A stretch of 64,000 nucleotides of DNA from Thermoplasmata archaeon (GCA_035532555.1 DATKQS010000020.1:62001-126000); one strand, 5' to 3'. Shown: positions 33,750 through 44,506, numbered from the stretch's first letter. The notes: generated by a model not told the origin, from the sequence alone. Numbers and translations: made by a program.

Positions 33750-34517
33750 ATGGGAGCAATCGTCCTCGGCACCAGCGGCTGGGACTACCCGGAGTGGGTC
33801 GGCCGGGTCTACCCCAAGCACCGCATTCCGGACCGGCTCGCCTACTACGCTCGCCTCTTCCCCGTTGTCGAAGTGAACTCGACGTTCTACCGCCTCCCTC
33901 CACCCGGGGTGGCCGCGTCCTGGGTACGACGTACGCCGTCAAAGTTCCGCTTCGCGGCGAAGTTTCCGCAGACGATCACCCACGAGCAGCGTCTCGTGGG
34001 CACCGAAGAAGAGATGCATCGGTTCCTGGCGGTGCTCAAGCCGATCCGCGACGCAGGGAAGTTCGCAGCGGCGCTCCTGCAACTTCCGCCCTCGCTCGCC
34101 TTCGATCCCGGGATCGTCCGCACGTTCTACGAGAGCCTGCCGCGCGATCTGCCCGTGGCCGTGGAGTTCCGCGAGCCGTCCTGGCTCGCTCCGGAATCGT
34201 TCGAGCTGCTGCGGGAGTTCGGGTTCGCCTACGTGGTCGTCGACGAACCCCACCTACCGGTTCGGCTCGAGGTGACCGCCCCGTTCTCCTACGTCCGATG
34301 GCACGGACGCGGCGCGAAGCTCTGGTACGACTACACGTACTCCGCGGAGGAGATCGATGCCTGGGTGCCCCGGGTGCGCGCGCTCGCCGAGAAGACCGAC
34401 ACGATCTACGGGTTCTTCAACAACCACTTCCGCGGCGACGCCGCCGCGAACTGCCAGACGCTCGCCGAGCACCTCGGGCTACCACCGCCCCCCGGGGCCT
34501 CCCGGCTCGACGTCTGA
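33750..34517 (+). CDS. DUF72 family TIM-barrel protein
   Basis: 255 residues. The N-terminus GTSGWDYPEWVGRVYP, the NSTFYRLP segment, KFPQTITHEQRL, AVEFREPSW, YVRWHGR and the near-terminal FFNNHFRGDAAANC are the standard DUF72 signatures. The fold is a TIM barrel; the biochemical role of the family is not established. Monocistronic between the ABC operon and the polymerase operon. A weak TATA-like CTTAAC lies about 40 bases upstream. Confidence 0.92.
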   Translation: MGAIVLGTSGWDYPEWVGRVYPKHRIPDRLAYYARLFPVVEVNSTFYRLPPPGVAASWVRRTPSKFRFAAKFPQTITHEQRLVGTEEEMHRFLAVLKPIRDAGKFAAALLQLPPSLAFDPGIVRTFYESLPRDLPVAVEFREPSWLAPESFELLREFGFAYVVVDEPHLPVRLEVTAPFSYVRWHGRGAKLWYDYTYSAEEIDAWVPRVRALAEKTDTIYGFFNNHFRGDAAANCQTLAEHLGLPPPPGASRLDV

Positions 34518-34622: not shown

Positions 34623-35501
34623 ATGACGACCGTGTCCCTCGGGACTGCTCCCGAGATGGTGTTCCCGGAACCGATCGATCCCGGTCCCTTCTCCCCACCG
34701 AGCCCACCACAGCCGTTCCCCCACGCCGAACGGATCCAACGTCACCTCTCGCGGCCGACCCGACGCCTGCATCGCCGCGCGATGACGCTCCCTCCCACTC
34801 CGAACCTCTTCCCCTGGCTCGCCCAGCGATTCTCCCCGGGGGAAGCGACCGTGTGGGTCGGTCCGCCCTCGGCGATCGAGCCGATGCTCGAACTCCTGTA
34901 CGCCGGCAGCGCTGTCGTGCGCGGTCGGATCTCGCTGATCGAAGGATCGAACCGGTTCCATCCGTTCCGGATAGGAGAGTTGGGCCGCAGCCTCGGGGTG
35001 GACGCCACCTCCACGCTCGAGCGGATTCGCATCGCGCGCTCGTTCACGGCCCACCAAACGGTCGCGCTCGTGGACGGGTGGTCGGCGGAAGCGCGCCACC
35101 GTCTCCCGACCCTGTTGGTCGGGCACGGCCTCGCCTCGGGCCCGCTCGATGACCCCGAGGTCCCTGCCGACGAACGCACGGCGCTCGTCTCCCACATGGC
35201 CCGCAGTCTCTCGACGCTGCTTCGCAAGGTGCCGATCCCGCTCCTCTTGACGATGGAAGGCGGTCTCGATCGGTTCCCGGGCCTCGTCGAGGAAGGTCCC
35301 CGGCTCTACGACTACCTCTCGATCCAGCACCGGCCGAACGGACTCACGTTGCGCGCGCTGCGGGACGACGCTCGGTTCGAGCTCGTGCAACGTCCCTCGG
35401 GCCAGCGCGGGCTCGACGAGTTCTCCGAGACGAACGAACGGGAGGTGATGCGATGGGACGCACCGCGCCGACGTACCGCCAGGCGCTCGAAGAGCGGATG
35501 A
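34623..35501 (+). CDS. RecA/RadA-fold protein without Walker A or Walker B
   Basis: 292 residues: a Pro-rich leader of about 50, a RecA-like core, and a basic tail ending RRRTARRSKSG. The core follows RadA closely in layout: GEATVWVGPPSAIEPML stands where the RadA P-loop would be, then ISLIEGSNRFHPFRIGELG (RadA: strand, Asp, then FRPERI), then IRIARSFTAHQTVALVD (RadA: VARAFN...). The P-loop Gly-Lys-Thr is absent and the Walker B strand reads TLLVGHGLA without Asp, so it should not hydrolyse ATP. Likely a structural or polymerase-targeting paralogue, comparable in logic to bacterial ImuA. First gene of the PolB operon. Confidence 0.75.
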   Translation: MTTVSLGTAPEMVFPEPIDPGPFSPPSPPQPFPHAERIQRHLSRPTRRLHRRAMTLPPTPNLFPWLAQRFSPGEATVWVGPPSAIEPMLELLYAGSAVVRGRISLIEGSNRFHPFRIGELGRSLGVDATSTLERIRIARSFTAHQTVALVDGWSAEARHRLPTLLVGHGLASGPLDDPEVPADERTALVSHMARSLSTLLRKVPIPLLLTMEGGLDRFPGLVEEGPRLYDYLSIQHRPNGLTLRALRDDARFELVQRPSGQRGLDEFSETNEREVMRWDAPRRRTARRSKSG

Positions 35502-35713
35502 AACGCTGGGAGGCGTTCGGCCGTCTGCTCACGACCCCGGAGGAGCGGGCCGCATTCGAAACGCTCCGCACCGGCGCCCGTCGCTACGTCGCTCAGGCGA
35601 CGAACGTCGGGAGTCCCGACCTCCTCGAATCGATCCTGCTCTCTGTCCTCCTCGACATGGCACGACGGATGCCGCCGATCGCTCCTCCCGCGGCCGATCC
35701 CGACGGATCGTGA
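35453..35713 (+). CDS. Small helical protein between the RecA-like and PolB genes
   Basis: 86 residues, mostly helical (ALEERMKRWEAFGRLLTTPE, LESILLSVLLDMARRM), with a Pro-rich end. ATG 35453 lies inside the previous gene (49-base overlap) and is preceded by a near-perfect GGAGGTGA ribosome site at 35441-35448, which makes the overlap credible. It ends in a GTGA overlap with the polymerase. No family recognised; the position suggests an adaptor between the RecA-like protein and the polymerase. Confidence 0.8.
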   Translation: MGRTAPTYRQALEERMKRWEAFGRLLTTPEERAAFETLRTGARRYVAQATNVGSPDLLESILLSVLLDMARRMPPIAPPAADPDGS

Positions 35714-38037
35714 GCGTCGAGGCCGACGCCTGGCTGCTCGACATCACCGAGCACCCGGACGGGCGCTCGGTCGACCTTTGGACGAAGGATCGGCACACGG
35801 CCCGGGTCTCCCGGCGCTCGGAACCGTTCCGCCCGCCGTTCTACGTTCTCGGATCCCGGAGCGACCTCGTGGATCTGGAGCGCCAGCTATCGTCCCACCC
35901 GGAGGTCGACTCCGTCGCCTCCAGCCATCAGCGCCCGTCCCTCTTCGAGGAGCGACGACGACGCATGCTCTCGGTGGTTCCGGCCCGGAACCCGCTCCGA
36001 AGACGGCTCGCCCGCACGATCGATGCGATCGGGGAGTTCCACCGCTTCACGCTGTACGACGTCGACCTGACCCCGCCGCAGCTCTACCACCTCGCGCACG
36101 ATCTCTATCCGTTCGCGCCCGTGCGCGCGGGATCCGGTCCGCTCGTCGCGATCGAACCGCCCGAGGTGCTCGAGTACGACGCACCACCGATGCGAATCGT
36201 CCCGCTCGAGATCCGCTTCGACGGAACGCCTCGACGGCAGCGGATCCCATCGACCGAGGCTCGCATCCGCTCGGTCCGGATCGGGGAGACGATCCTCGAA
36301 GGACCCGAGCCGGACCTGTTGCGTGCGCTCGCCGCCGAGGTCGCCCGGGTCGATCCGGACGTGATCCGGACGGACGGCGGGGACTCGCTCGACCTGCCGT
36401 GGATCTACCGTCGAGCGGAAGCGGCGGGGCTCTCGGCGTCCGAGATCGCTCTCGGCCGGATCCCGGTCCCGTTCCGCCCGGAGCGCGGAGGCCGATCGTA
36501 CATGACCTACGGCCGAGTCGTTCACCAGGCCGCGTCGTTCAACCTGCCCGGGCGCTTTCACATCGACCGGGAGAACTCCTTCCTGTTCGGGGACACCGAT
36601 CTCGACGGGCTCATCGACGCGGCCCGGCTCTCCCGCCTCTCCCTGCAGACGATCATCCGCCAATCCCCGGGCACCTGCTTCACCGCGATGGAGATCGCGC
36701 AGGCGCTCCAGCTCGGGGTGCGCGTGCCGTGGAAGAAGAACCGCCCCGAGCGGTTCCGCTCCGGCGCCCACCTCGTCCTCGCCGACCGCGGGGGCGCGAT
36801 CCTGCAACCTCCCGTCGGAGTGCACGATCGCGTGGAGGAGTTCGATTTCGTGAGTTTGTTCCCGCAGATCATGATCACGAAGAACCTCTCGGCCGAGACG
36901 CTCGATTGCCGGTGCTGTCCCGAGAGCCCACGGATCGCTCCGGGGCTCGGGTACCGATCGTGCACCCGTCGAGTGGGGTTGATCCCGCGCACGCTCCACC
37001 CGCTCGTCCGTCGTCGGCTCGCGTACAAGGCGGCGATGCGCCGCCCCGGGATCCCGGCGAGCGAACGCGTCCGGCTCGCGCGGCGCGTGAAGATGCTGAA
37101 GTGGATCCTCGTAACGGCGTTCGGCTACCAAGGGTACCGCAACGCGCGGTTCGGTCGGATCGAATGCCACGAAGCGATCAACGCCTATGCGCGCGAGGTG
37201 ATGGCCGATCTCTCCCGCGCTGGGGAGGAGATCGGGTACCGAACGCTCCACGGGATCGTCGATTCGCTCTGGGTCCAACCCCGGAGGGGAGAGACGGAGC
37301 CCGATCCCGAGGCGTTCGCCGAGCGGATGAGCGAGCGCCTCGAGCTTCCGCTCGGCTACGAGGGAAGGTACCGATGGATCGTCTTCCTTCCCGCCACGAC
37401 CCACGGCTTCGGCGTTCCGAACCGGTACTACGGCCGGTACGTCTCGGGCGAGTTCAAGCTGCGCGGAATCGGCGGGCGACGTCACGACACGACCATGCTC
37501 GTGCGCCGGTTCGAGACCGAGGCGCTCCAGATGCTGGGGGAAGCCTCGGATGCGCCGGGGGTCCGCGCGCGGGTGCCGCGGGCGCTCGCCCGCGCCGACC
37601 GATTCGCGACCCGGCTCCGGGAGGGCGCCTGGCCGCTCGAAGAATTGCTCATCACGCACCACATCGGGACCGCGCTCGAGGCTCACCGTTCGTTCCGGGA
37701 CGAAACGAGCGCGCTTCGCCAGCTCGCCGCGCTCGGGCTCGCGCGGGTTCCGGGGGAATCGGTCCGCTACGTCATCCTCGACCGGAGCTCGCGCTCCTGG
37801 CGCAATCGCGCCCGCGTCGCCGAGACGATGACGGGGGAGGAGCGGTACGACGTCGGCGCCTACCTCGAGATCCTCGCCCGCGGGGTGGAGACGCTGCTGG
37901 CTCCGTTTGGGATCGACCGGGCCGCGCTCCGCGTCCGCTGGGGGATCCCCACGGAACGCGAACGCTCCCCGTACGCCTCCGGATCGGACCCCGACCAGCA
38001 GCTCCTCGCCTCGGAGGGGGGCTCGCCGACCTTTTAG
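35710..38037 (+). CDS. Divergent family B DNA polymerase (archaeal PolB2-like)
   Basis: 775 residues from GTG 35710. Palm motifs are present but altered: motif A EEFDFVSLFPQIM with Asp379; motif B KMLKWILVTAFGYQGY (461-476), where the usual Asn-Ser is Val-Thr but the Lys residues remain; motif C LHGIVDSLWV, where the first Asp of DTDS is Ile but the catalytic second Asp (518) remains. The exonuclease is decayed: Exo I reads PLEIRF near 165 instead of DIE, Exo II keeps Asp in DSLDLPWI near 228, and Exo III is not found. A CRCC...CTRR cysteine group near 398-420 is an extra. The picture is a proofreading-deficient, possibly slow polymerase of the PolB2/Dpo2 kind. Confidence 0.85.
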   Translation: MSVEADAWLLDITEHPDGRSVDLWTKDRHTARVSRRSEPFRPPFYVLGSRSDLVDLERQLSSHPEVDSVASSHQRPSLFEERRRRMLSVVPARNPLRRRLARTIDAIGEFHRFTLYDVDLTPPQLYHLAHDLYPFAPVRAGSGPLVAIEPPEVLEYDAPPMRIVPLEIRFDGTPRRQRIPSTEARIRSVRIGETILEGPEPDLLRALAAEVARVDPDVIRTDGGDSLDLPWIYRRAEAAGLSASEIALGRIPVPFRPERGGRSYMTYGRVVHQAASFNLPGRFHIDRENSFLFGDTDLDGLIDAARLSRLSLQTIIRQSPGTCFTAMEIAQALQLGVRVPWKKNRPERFRSGAHLVLADRGGAILQPPVGVHDRVEEFDFVSLFPQIMITKNLSAETLDCRCCPESPRIAPGLGYRSCTRRVGLIPRTLHPLVRRRLAYKAAMRRPGIPASERVRLARRVKMLKWILVTAFGYQGYRNARFGRIECHEAINAYAREVMADLSRAGEEIGYRTLHGIVDSLWVQPRRGETEPDPEAFAERMSERLELPLGYEGRYRWIVFLPATTHGFGVPNRYYGRYVSGEFKLRGIGGRRHDTTMLVRRFETEALQMLGEASDAPGVRARVPRALARADRFATRLREGAWPLEELLITHHIGTALEAHRSFRDETSALRQLAALGLARVPGESVRYVILDRSSRSWRNRARVAETMTGEERYDVGAYLEILARGVETLLAPFGIDRAALRVRWGIPTERERSPYASGSDPDQQLLASEGGSPTF

Positions 38038-38043
38038 GGCGGC

Positions 38044-39495
38044 GTGACGCTGTTTCCCTTCGTGGCACCGGCACTGCGTCGGGTCCGCTCCGAAGCCCGG
38101 GCCCCCCGAGGCACCGAGGTGCGGGAACCCGAAGACGATCTGACCCCGATGGTCGCGGGACTGAGCGACCCGGATCCCACCGTGCGCCGAGCGATGGCCA
38201 AGGCGCTGGGAGAAGGGCGCGACCCGCGTGCCGTGAGCGCGCTCGAGGCCTCGCTCGGAGACCCATCCCCCGCCGTGCGGGCGAGTGCGGCCGAGTCCCT
38301 CGGAGCGATCGGCCGGAGCGAGAGCTACGCGCCGCTCGATCGGACCTTGGAGGACCCCGATCCCCGAGTCCGCGAGCAGGCGGCGCGCGCCCTGCGATTG
38401 ATCGCCGACCCGCGTTCGACCCCCGCGCTCGCGGGGCACATGAAGGATCCGGCCCCGGAGGTGCGCTGGGCGGTCGCCATCGCGCTCGGACGGATGCGCA
38501 CTCCTCTCGCCCGCGATACCCTCCTCGGCGCGATCGACGACGCGAGCGACCGGGTCCGCCGCGAGGTGGTGCTGGCCCTCGCGCTCACCGAAGACCCGAG
38601 GGTGGTCGAGAAGGTCCGGCCGTTGCTGCGCGATCCCGCCCGGCGCGTACGGACCGCGGCCGCCGTGGTGGTGGGTCGCTACCGCGACCTCGAGAGCGTC
38701 CCGCTCCTCCTCGAGCGCATGCGCGGGCCCGATCCGTGGGAACGCCCCGCGGTCCTGGTCGCGCTCGGCAAGATCGGGGACCCGCGCGGCGTGCCCGCGA
38801 TGGTCGAGGCCGCCCGCGACCCGGCCCATTACGTGCGCGTCTGCGCGATCCACGCGCTCGGCGAGATGCGTAGCGAGCGGGCCCGGGAGGTCGCTCTCGC
38901 GCACGTCACCGACCCCTCCTGGGCCGTGCGGGGAGCCGCGGCCGTGTGTCTCGGCTCGGTCGGCACGCCCGCCGATCTGCCGATCCTCCTCGGCATGCTC
39001 GAGGACGCCAACCCCTGGCCCCGGAGCGGGACGATCTACGCGATCGGCCGGCTCGAACTGGTCGAGGCGGTCCCGCGCGTGCGCGAAGAACTGCATCACC
39101 CCAACGCCGATGTGCGCCTCGCGGCGGTCTGGACCCTCGGACGTCTGCGCGATGACGGCGCCCGTGCGGAGCTCGTCCGCATGCTCCACGCCGAGCCCGC
39201 GGCACCGGAGCCACCCGCGGTCTTCGCCGCCGGCGAGACGATCCGCATCTCCTCCGATGCCGAGACCCGCATCTTCGACACGGTGGTCGAGGCGCTCGGC
39301 CGACTGCGGCGCGCCGACGACGACCCGTTCGTGGAGCAGGCGCTCAGCGACGCTCGCTCGCAGCTCTCTGAGGAGGAGCTCGATCGGATGGCGCGACTGC
39401 CGCTGCTCGGGGGCGACGCCACCAGCACGACCCTGACGCTCCGGATCCTGTTCGAGACCGCGCTCCCGATGGACGGTACGGACGACGAGGCCTGA
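38044..39495 (+). CDS. HEAT-repeat (PBS lyase-type) protein
   Basis: 483 residues from GTG 38044, 6 bases after the polymerase stop. Residues about 30-390 are a run of roughly a dozen 31-residue HEAT units of the form DPDPTVRRAMAKALGEGRDP, with the usual Asp-Pro and Val-Arg positions; the C-terminal 80 residues are a separate helical region. No phycobilisome context exists, so this is a generic protein-protein scaffold. Its coupling to the polymerase suggests a scaffold for the same process, though read-through from an unrelated neighbour is possible. Confidence 0.9.
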   Translation: MTLFPFVAPALRRVRSEARAPRGTEVREPEDDLTPMVAGLSDPDPTVRRAMAKALGEGRDPRAVSALEASLGDPSPAVRASAAESLGAIGRSESYAPLDRTLEDPDPRVREQAARALRLIADPRSTPALAGHMKDPAPEVRWAVAIALGRMRTPLARDTLLGAIDDASDRVRREVVLALALTEDPRVVEKVRPLLRDPARRVRTAAAVVVGRYRDLESVPLLLERMRGPDPWERPAVLVALGKIGDPRGVPAMVEAARDPAHYVRVCAIHALGEMRSERAREVALAHVTDPSWAVRGAAAVCLGSVGTPADLPILLGMLEDANPWPRSGTIYAIGRLELVEAVPRVREELHHPNADVRLAAVWTLGRLRDDGARAELVRMLHAEPAAPEPPAVFAAGETIRISSDAETRIFDTVVEALGRLRRADDDPFVEQALSDARSQLSEEELDRMARLPLLGGDATSTTLTLRILFETALPMDGTDDEA

Positions 39496-41803: not shown

Positions 41804-44506
41804 GTGACCGATTCCACCATCCCTCCTCCATCCCCCGAGGTCGGGTATGTCCCGGAGCCGATTTTCGAGAAGCCGCCGATTCTGACGCGGGTGCTCGAAA
41901 CCGCGGAGGACAAGATCCGCGAGCCCCTCGCGCGTCGGAAGTTCTTCCAGCGGCTCTTCCTGCTCGATCGCGACTGGATGACCCGCATCACGATGTTGAT
42001 GCTGATCGGCGCGATGGTCTGGGGGGTCATCGGCGGCCTCGACGCCTACGGCTTCCAGAGCCAAGCGTACGACTACGCGACCTCGGGCACGATCACCCTG
42101 ACGAACCAGGAGATCTACTCCTCGATCACGCTCCACGGTCTCCGGATGCTCTTCGGTTTCGCCCAGCAGCTGGAGATGGCGCTCTTCGGCCTCCTCGCGA
42201 TCAACGCGATGGGCGTCAAGCCCCGCCACAAGTGGGCGCTGTACACCTCGGTAGGGCTGATCAACGCCTCGATCATGCTGCTCGAGGGTCCGTTCTACAT
42301 CTGGCCCGCGTTCAACGACAACTACTTCCCGTCGCTCGGCTGGACGTTCTCCTCCCCCCTCGGCATCCAGGGCCAGAGCGCCTACGCCATCGGCCCTCTG
42401 TGGTTCCTGGGCTGGTACGCGCTCACGGCCGCGGTCCTGATCTGGGCCGGGTGGATGCTCGTCCACTTCCGCGACTGGCTCCGTTCGCGGCCGGCGGGCG
42501 CGGCCGGGCGCCTACCGGTCTCGCTCCTGTTCGTGTTCGCGACCGTGATCCTGATCCCGATCACCTACGGCCCGCTCCTCGTCTCGACCACGTGGGACAT
42601 CGGGACGTACTACCTCGGCTGGGGGCTCAACCCGCTCGTCAACCAGGTCATCTTCTGGATGTTCGGCCACGGGATCGTCTACGTCCTCTTCCTGATCCCG
42701 GTCGCCGCGCTCTACCTGCTCATCCCCATCCTGTCGAAACGACCGATCTACAGCTACCGGTTCGCGATCCTCGCGGCGGTCCTGTTCATCATCCTGACGC
42801 CGCTCCTGGGCATCCATCACCTGTTCCTGACGGCGCTCCCGACCTGGGCGACGTACACGACCATGGTGATCTCCTTCTTGATCATCATTCCGAGCGCGGT
42901 CACGTTCTTCTCGCTGTGGATGACCATGAAAGGCGTCCGACGCTCGCAGTGGGAATGGAACATCGTCGCGCTGTTCGCGCTCCTTGCGTTCGCCGGCTCG
43001 ATCGCGGGCGGACTCTCCGGACCCGATGTCGCAACCATCGGAGCGAACGTCGATCTACACAACAGTCTCTTCGTGCTCAGCCACTTCCACACGATCACGA
43101 TCTTGGCGATCCTGACCGGCGCCTACGCGGTCCTCTATGCGGTGTTTCCGCTCCTGTGCGGACGGCTCTGGTTCTCTACGTGGCTCGCCCGGATCCACTT
43201 CCTCACCACCGCGATCGGCGGGATTATCATCGTCGTCTGCTTCGAGGGTCTCGGCACGCTCGGCATCCTGCGCCGGCAGATCCTGTTCCCGAACGTTCCG
43301 GCGGTCGACCTGTACAACGTCATTCTCTTCGCCGGGATCATCGTCATCCTCGTCGGCCAGTTGTTCTTCGTCCTCAACGGCTTCCTGACCGCGTATCGCG
43401 GTCGACCGATCGTGACCTCGGGTCTCTCCTTCGATGAGGCGATCCGGACGGCGGCCCGCTCGACCTACGTCGGATCGACGGTACCGGTCCAGGACGTCCC
43501 CGTCCAGCGGAAAGCGACGCGCGCGCGCCGCGAGCACGTCGAGAAGCTCTGGGTGGGCAGCGTGATCGTGCTCATCGTCGTGGTGCTCGCCGCGGCGACG
43601 CCGCAGGCACTCTCCGTCACCAACGGCATCACCTCGGCGACGAATGCGCCGGCAGGATCGGAGTACGTCACGCTCTCCGGACAGCAGTACTACTGGACCG
43701 TCAACGAGACCGGCCCCATCCGGGGAACGTTCGACAACGCGATCGTGGCCTACGCCGGCCAATGGATCAGTGTCAATGCGACCGCGACCGGCGCGACCCA
43801 ATCGCTGTACATTCCCTTCCGTTCGCTACCGATGGTCAACGTCCAAGTGGTACCGGGATCGGATTCCTACGCGCTCTTCCAGGCACCCTCGACCCCGGGA
43901 GTCTACGGCGCGCCCGATGGGGAGTTCGACGGACCATGGTTCGGCCAGGACGCGGCCGCGCTGATCGTACTGCCGACCGCGGGCGCTTCCGATCTCTCCG
44001 CCTTCCAGTCCGGCGGAGGCGCGGGGGACATCTACAACCCCCCGGTCCTCACGGCGGCGAGCGCGAACCTGGTCGGGGACTCCGAAGGGCTGTTCAACCA
44101 CTCGATTCCCGGACCGACCCTCTACGCGGGCGCCGGCGTCGTCTCGTTCCGCTGGGAGGTTCCGCTCTCGAGCATCGGGACGAACAACTACCTCGTGAAC
44201 GTGACCTCCAACGACAAGAACGCCCAGCAGCAGTACGTCATCGATCACAACTACACCCTGCCGTATCCGGTCGGGATCTACGAGATCACGGCGACCCACG
44301 GTCTCCGGCTCGTGACCGCTCCGCAATCGCTGCGGATCAACCGGGTCATCACCGAGAGCGTGCCGCTCGCGAGCGGGGTCTACCTCTACGGTCTCGTCTC
44401 GCCCGTCTCGTACTCCTACAATCCGGACGGGCAATCGAACGGCTCGACTGGGTCCCAGCTCGGAGAGGTGATGGGTCTGTGGGGGGTCCTGTGGGTGGGT
44501 CCATGA
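41804..44506 (+). CDS. Heme-copper oxidase, fused subunits I and II, no CuA site
   Basis: 900 residues from GTG 41804. Residues about 55-540 are the 12-14 helix subunit I; a further helix near 585-605 leads to an external cupredoxin-like subunit II domain. All metal ligands are seen: low-spin heme His110 and His429, CuB His289, His338, His339, high-spin heme His427. The cross-linked Tyr293 is kept in GHGIVY, but the Pro and Glu of GHPEVY are replaced; loss of the Glu is a B-type oxidase trait. The subunit II part has no Cys, so CuA is missing and quinol or a blue-copper protein is the likely donor. It reduces oxygen and pumps protons. Confidence 0.9.
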   Translation: MTDSTIPPPSPEVGYVPEPIFEKPPILTRVLETAEDKIREPLARRKFFQRLFLLDRDWMTRITMLMLIGAMVWGVIGGLDAYGFQSQAYDYATSGTITLTNQEIYSSITLHGLRMLFGFAQQLEMALFGLLAINAMGVKPRHKWALYTSVGLINASIMLLEGPFYIWPAFNDNYFPSLGWTFSSPLGIQGQSAYAIGPLWFLGWYALTAAVLIWAGWMLVHFRDWLRSRPAGAAGRLPVSLLFVFATVILIPITYGPLLVSTTWDIGTYYLGWGLNPLVNQVIFWMFGHGIVYVLFLIPVAALYLLIPILSKRPIYSYRFAILAAVLFIILTPLLGIHHLFLTALPTWATYTTMVISFLIIIPSAVTFFSLWMTMKGVRRSQWEWNIVALFALLAFAGSIAGGLSGPDVATIGANVDLHNSLFVLSHFHTITILAILTGAYAVLYAVFPLLCGRLWFSTWLARIHFLTTAIGGIIIVVCFEGLGTLGILRRQILFPNVPAVDLYNVILFAGIIVILVGQLFFVLNGFLTAYRGRPIVTSGLSFDEAIRTAARSTYVGSTVPVQDVPVQRKATRARREHVEKLWVGSVIVLIVVVLAAATPQALSVTNGITSATNAPAGSEYVTLSGQQYYWTVNETGPIRGTFDNAIVAYAGQWISVNATATGATQSLYIPFRSLPMVNVQVVPGSDSYALFQAPSTPGVYGAPDGEFDGPWFGQDAAALIVLPTAGASDLSAFQSGGGAGDIYNPPVLTAASANLVGDSEGLFNHSIPGPTLYAGAGVVSFRWEVPLSSIGTNNYLVNVTSNDKNAQQQYVIDHNYTLPYPVGIYEITATHGLRLVTAPQSLRINRVITESVPLASGVYLYGLVSPVSYSYNPDGQSNGSTGSQLGEVMGLWGVLWVGP

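Follow-up and report, generated by a model that had tools for sequence, protein, structure and literature searches.

What do three overlapping genes in the genome of a Thermoplasmata archaeon encode, and do they form a new module for tolerating DNA damage or belong to one that is already known? An earlier note on this locus had described a mutasome-like operon made up of a RecA-fold protein with neither Walker A nor Walker B, a small adaptor, and a divergent family B polymerase, coupled by overlaps of 49 and 4 bases. We analyzed the locus within the whole 64-kb stretch of DNA in which it lies (the window). The host assembly, which is assigned to the Thermoplasmata, is 1.6 Mb in size and 96% complete, and it probably belongs to a member of the Lutacidiplasmatales. 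All three open reading frames and both overlaps were recovered as described, on a single strand (Table 1). There were no matches to Rfam families and no tRNAs within the window, and no bacterial-type promoter or terminator patterns were found upstream, a pattern set that is uninformative for archaea. Elsewhere in the window, a 900-aa protein carries a COX1 (heme-copper oxidase subunit I) domain in its first ~510 residues, followed by a long C-terminal region that no Pfam family matched.

Table 1. Features of the operon and its surroundings, with positions counted from the first nucleotide of the window.
Feature	Position	Strand	Description
DUF72-family gene	33750..34517	+	PF01904, E 6e-67; 105 nt upstream of iRadA
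iRadA gene	34623..35501	+	292 aa; RadA/Rad51-family core, without Walker A/B, without N-terminal RadA domain
iRadA N-terminal tail	34623-34780		~50 residues, Pro/Arg-rich, disordered, low model confidence
Candidate clamp-binding (PIP)-like motif QRGLDEF	35403..35423	+	iRadA residues 261-267; from motif survey; low-pLDDT tail
iRadA/PPB2 overlap	35453-35501		exactly 49 nt
PPB2 / arCOG07300-type small-protein gene	35453..35713	+	86 aa; starts 49 nt inside iRadA
PPB2/PolB2 overlap	35710-35713		exactly 4 nt
PolB2-type family B DNA polymerase gene	35710..38037	+	775 aa; GTG start
PolB2 element FRSG...LADRGG	36754..36795	+	residues 349-362; FxxG/A RadA-oligomerization-like element, then D(R/K) motif
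Polymerase motif C LHGIVDSLWV	37246..37275	+	residues 513-522; Ile for first Asp of DxD
HEAT-repeat protein gene	38044..39495	+	begins 6 nt past PolB2 stop
COX1-domain protein	41804-44506		900 aa

Genes of these kinds have been reported together before. Predicted operons that combine PolB2 with arCOG07300 and an inactivated RadA gene, including some in euryarchaea, were described by Makarova 2014 (PMC4104785), where the arCOG07300 gene is ~90 aa long and helical and the RadA-type genes belong to arCOG07763, arCOG04294, and arCOG08101. More recently, Timinskas 2025 (PMC11791011) named the two partners iRadA and PPB2, proposed a heteropentamer based on AlphaFold prediction, and introduced the term "PolB2 mutasome" along with a comparison to Pol V. 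According to these two studies, PolB2 is regularly accompanied by an inactive RadA and the small protein, in Sulfolobales as well as in euryarchaea and bacteria. In addition, Dpo2 of S. islandicus is damage inducible, is required for damage-induced mutagenesis, and behaves as an extender polymerase (PMC7390963, PMC8764526). The earlier note had mentioned a link between PolB2 (Dpo2) and damage tolerance in Sulfolobales. Experiments on error-prone translesion function come from Sulfolobales only, and our search of the literature found no experimental work on any Thermoplasmata PolB2.

The first gene encodes a member of the RadA/Rad51 family. Taken as a single sequence, the protein had only a subthreshold match to Pfam Rad51 (E 0.0024), and 31 of 33 members of its family matched that model. 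Furthermore, when a profile built from the 33 members was compared by hhalign with the host's own RadA, the probability was 97.4% (E 1.2e-11), compared with 0.1% for an unrelated HEAT protein that served as a negative control, and matches of the family profile to solved RadA chains reached E values as low as 8.6e-17. Structure prediction gave a mean pLDDT of 84, with most of the core above 95, and RadA, DMC1, and RAD51 were the top structural matches in Foldseek. We therefore rejected the possibility, raised in the earlier note as a way in which its reading could fail, that this protein is unrelated to RecA or RadA. Alignment with the host's RadA and RadB-like proteins revealed how far it has departed from its relatives. 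Specifically, both Walker motifs are gone, since VGPPSAIE stands in place of the Walker A sequence GEFGTGKT and LLVGHG in place of the Walker B sequence LLVVDS, and the N-terminal helical domain of RadA is absent. Both RadA and the RadB-like protein of the same genome are intact, so iRadA is a third, specialized paralogue. Its N-terminal tail is of similar length across the genus, where usable start codons lie ~40 to 48 residues before the domain.

The second gene had no Pfam or NCBIfam match, and its product had no significant sequence relationship to solved structures. What identifies it is its beginning, MGRTAPTYRQ, which contains the conserved MGRT arm described for PPB2 (PMC11791011). Nearly all of ~90 PPB2 relatives start with [M/V/L]GRT or with GKS, some of them from GTG or TTG start codons. 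By analogy with the published family, the protein would have a helical fold. The manner in which this gene overlaps iRadA is also conserved: among ~90 loci the overlap was 49 nt in 60 and 37 nt in nine, and it was variable or absent in the rest. Such a fixed overlap suggests that translational coupling between iRadA and PPB2 has been conserved within the genus.

The third gene encodes a polymerase of the PolB2 type, as indicated by a full-length match to the NCBIfam subfamily PRK05761 (E 3.5e-122) and by a predicted structure (pLDDT 88) whose entire length aligns with archaeal family B polymerases (E 6e-42). The altered motifs and decayed exonuclease that had been claimed for it are evident. 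Motif C is of the HG[IL][VI]DSLW type throughout, and the first Asp was kept in none of 102 readable PolB2 sequences; the PolB2 of S. islandicus has Ile at the same position (PMC11791011). The host's PolB3, examined as a control, retains SDTDS, and the change in motif C is thus not an organism-wide trait. The acidic pattern required for catalysis is missing from exo I-III, and the Pfam exonuclease domain was matched below threshold only. Other residues have been retained. Across 104 aligned PolB2 proteins, the second Asp of motif C is invariant, and the Asp of motif A (DFxSLYP) and the Lys of motif B (KWxLVTxFGY) are invariant or nearly so. At the level of sequence, the polymerase also carries the published D(K/R) motif after a RadA-like oligomerization element: D[RK]GG was present in 101 of 102 readable sequences, and the preceding F and A/G were present in 82 and 94 of 104, respectively. 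In the model of PMC11791011, the equivalent part of PolB2 mimics the oligomerization motif of RadA and binds iRadA, and the role of the FxxG/A element here would follow by analogy.

An argument can be made that such a polymerase is catalytically dead in this lineage, and that the three proteins form a structural or regulatory complex whose site of action might be stalled forks or origins. Inactivity was the original proposal for this "inactivated" PolB2 group (PMC4104785); the operons described there resemble ours in combining an inactivated RadA-family gene, a ~90-aa helical gene, and PolB2, but those authors thought the polymerase inactive. It is consistent with the replacement of the first DxD Asp in every sequence and with the loss of the exonuclease site. 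Yet the conserved residues of motifs A, B, and C argue otherwise, and S. islandicus Dpo2 is active (PMC8764526) despite its Ile (PMC11791011). In one family (f5; L045, L046, and L048), moreover, motif B of PolB2 is interrupted by a probable mini-intein, inserted in frame between KWxLVT and CFGY and ending in ...HGFAL(S/A)NG(V/I)LTHN|CFGY, as is characteristic of the C-terminus of an intein. Given that inteins tend toward functional active sites, this insertion suggests, without proving, that the PolB2 active site is in use. Overall, we consider a dead polymerase unlikely.

If the three proteins work together, their genes should be found together. Our survey covered 104 distinct PolB2 loci from Thermoplasmata and relatives, of which the 95 with at least 1.2 kb of upstream sequence were testable. 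The order iRadA-PPB2-PolB2, with adjacent genes on the same strand as in the published operons, was found at 86 of these 95 loci, which come from the window's genus and from no fewer than seven further families in the class. This arrangement is far beyond chance. Some of the nine exceptions have divergent or distant partners that emerged in a sensitive profile search, including a divergent iRadA (L049), a PPB2 together with a distant weak iRadA match (L140), and a weak PPB2 (L050). In another genome (G027; L057), iRadA and PPB2 lie on a different contig, while for three loci (L121, 1733-3931; L130, 5001-7202; L139, 5010-7169) sensitive profiles detected neither partner beside PolB2. In the reverse direction, 17 related genomes without PolB2, eleven of them reaching or nearly reaching 90% completeness and five being less complete members of the genus, contained no PPB2; the iRadA profile found ordinary RadA only, or nothing, and no full iRadA match. 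Because the co-occurrence is conserved and the homology to RadA was found, neither of the two outcomes that the earlier note had set against its own reading is what these genomes hold. As a separate observation, one contig (G036, C153; L018) has two side-by-side copies of PolB2 in opposite orientation, possibly as an assembly palindrome.

The survey also bears on whether the operon is decaying on its way to loss, as might be supposed from its missing catalytic and ATPase residues and from its patchy presence across the class. We consider this very improbable, given open frames in dozens of species, a fixed overlap length, and motifs that remain fixed at low overall identity (Q261, HG[IL]VDS, D[RK]GG, and GRT).

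Comparison with characterized systems indicates where the operon belongs. Homology to the bacterial ImuA-ImuB-DnaE2 mutasome, suggested by a matching layout of a Walker-less RecA-superfamily protein, a non-catalytic protein, and a divergent polymerase, is refuted, since the operon has neither a family C DnaE2 (its polymerase is family B) nor an ImuB with a Y-family fold (its 86-aa middle protein has no Y-family polymerase match), and its helper matches RadA/Rad51 rather than being RecA-like. What survives of the comparison made in the earlier note is a functional analogy, in which an inactive RecA-type helper and a non-catalytic second protein serve an error-prone polymerase. There are likewise parallels with E. 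coli Pol V (UmuD'2C-RecA), as pointed out in PMC11791011, namely a RecA/Rad51-family partner held through an oligomerization-type motif and a small subunit whose N-terminal arm lies close to the active site. However, Pol V has a Y-family catalytic subunit, an active RecA, and a UmuD' that is unrelated to PPB2, and searches of the operon against Pfam and NCBIfam identified no Y-family UmuC with UmuD.

By comparison, the agreement with the PolB2 mutasome (PMC11791011; the S. islandicus Dpo2 operon) extends to all three gene families. The gene order is among those known from archaea and is the sole one in bacteria. Common to both are the GRT arm, Ile for the first Asp of DxD, the D(R/K) motif, a dead exonuclease, a RadA stripped of its ATPase residues and N-terminal domain, and a DUF72 neighbor. 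A DUF72 gene was frequently found next to PolB2 among our loci, an enrichment that was noted in PMC11791011. The operon differs from this published system in the HEAT-repeat gene that follows it, in the disordered N-terminal tail of iRadA, and in a clamp-like motif that is near-universal in iRadA and near-absent in PolB2. Within the genus, the HEAT-repeat gene often follows PolB2 in the same orientation, and it was absent downstream of PolB2 in the other families examined. Taken together, these results make the locus a further instance of a system that has already been described, not a new one. The suggestion that an inactive RadA-like helper would set this operon apart as a distinct module is not supported, because the same inactive helper is already present in the version from Sulfolobales.

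The clamp-like motif deserves closer attention. Altogether, 82 of 90 iRadA proteins carried Qxx[LIMV]xx[FWY] in the C-terminal tail, compared with a shuffled expectation of 1.5 of 90 and a maximum of 7 in 200 shuffles. Moreover, Q261 is invariant in 33 diverse iRadAs, down to 17% identity with the window's protein. A comparable motif occurred in the last 50 residues of only 5 of 104 PolB2 proteins. Judged by sequence, this is in line with the published report that clamp motifs are found in iRadA or PolB2 but rarely in both, although there they were seen in only a fraction of complexes (PMC11791011). The motif starts ~31 to 34 residues from the C-terminus in the window's genus, and so may have been missed by the published limit of 30 residues. 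In this lineage, PCNA tethering is probably achieved through the C-terminal QxxLxxF motif of iRadA rather than through PolB2. Most of these motifs lack the second aromatic residue that a canonical PIP box would have, for which reason PCNA binding stays a prediction. A broader proposal, that in Thermoplasmata the dead recombinase subunit provides nearly all of the tethering to the clamp and that in the Lutacidiplasmatales genus the mutasome works together with the conserved neighboring DUF72 and HEAT-repeat proteins in an extended damage-tolerance cassette, is one that we put forward tentatively and judge to be somewhat more likely wrong than right.

How might such an operon work? From gene content, gene order, motifs, predicted folds of iRadA and PolB2, and co-occurrence, all of which we observed, together with an architecture, damage induction, and translesion extension carried over from work on published homologues, the following picture can be proposed. 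Upon DNA damage, as in those homologues, the three proteins would be made in a coupled fashion and would form a complex in which a PPB2 trimer joins a single PolB2 and a single iRadA. PolB2 would grip iRadA through its FxxG/A-type element, imitating the contacts between RadA subunits, and one MGRT arm of PPB2 would enter the cleft between PolB2 and iRadA near the active site. By way of its C-terminal QxxLxxF motif, iRadA, rather than PolB2, would tether the complex to PCNA. The exonuclease-dead polymerase could then extend primer ends that are mispaired or contain lesions. The host genome also encodes PolB3 and a Y-family polymerase, which means that the role in lesion bypass could be shared.

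We are confident that the locus is an iRadA-PPB2-PolB2 operon, a PolB2 mutasome of the Lutacidiplasmatales-type Thermoplasmata that would operate by a mechanism of this kind. Three or four PolB2 loci without adjacent partners (L057, L121, L130, and L139) and the usually missing PIP aromatic count against the mutasome reading. Nevertheless, that reading, in which a dead RecA-type helper and a small adaptor accompany a PolB2-type polymerase, is supported by the diagnostic motifs, the co-occurrence, and the RadA homology, and it is probably right.

As a claim of discovery, our analysis adds little, because the module, its parts, and its interpretation as a mutasome are already in print. What is newly added is the near-invariant QxxLxxF/Y motif of iRadA, the fixed 49-nt overlap, the HEAT-repeat neighbor, and the mini-intein in the PolB2 of one family. 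More generally, the published design of the PolB2 mutasome is uniform across many families of Thermoplasmata and, within the genus, even in the overlap of its genes. Our findings supply many orthologues for the biochemistry of the complex, along with a sharp and testable prediction, that is, the tethering of the polymerase to the sliding clamp by way of a dead RadA.
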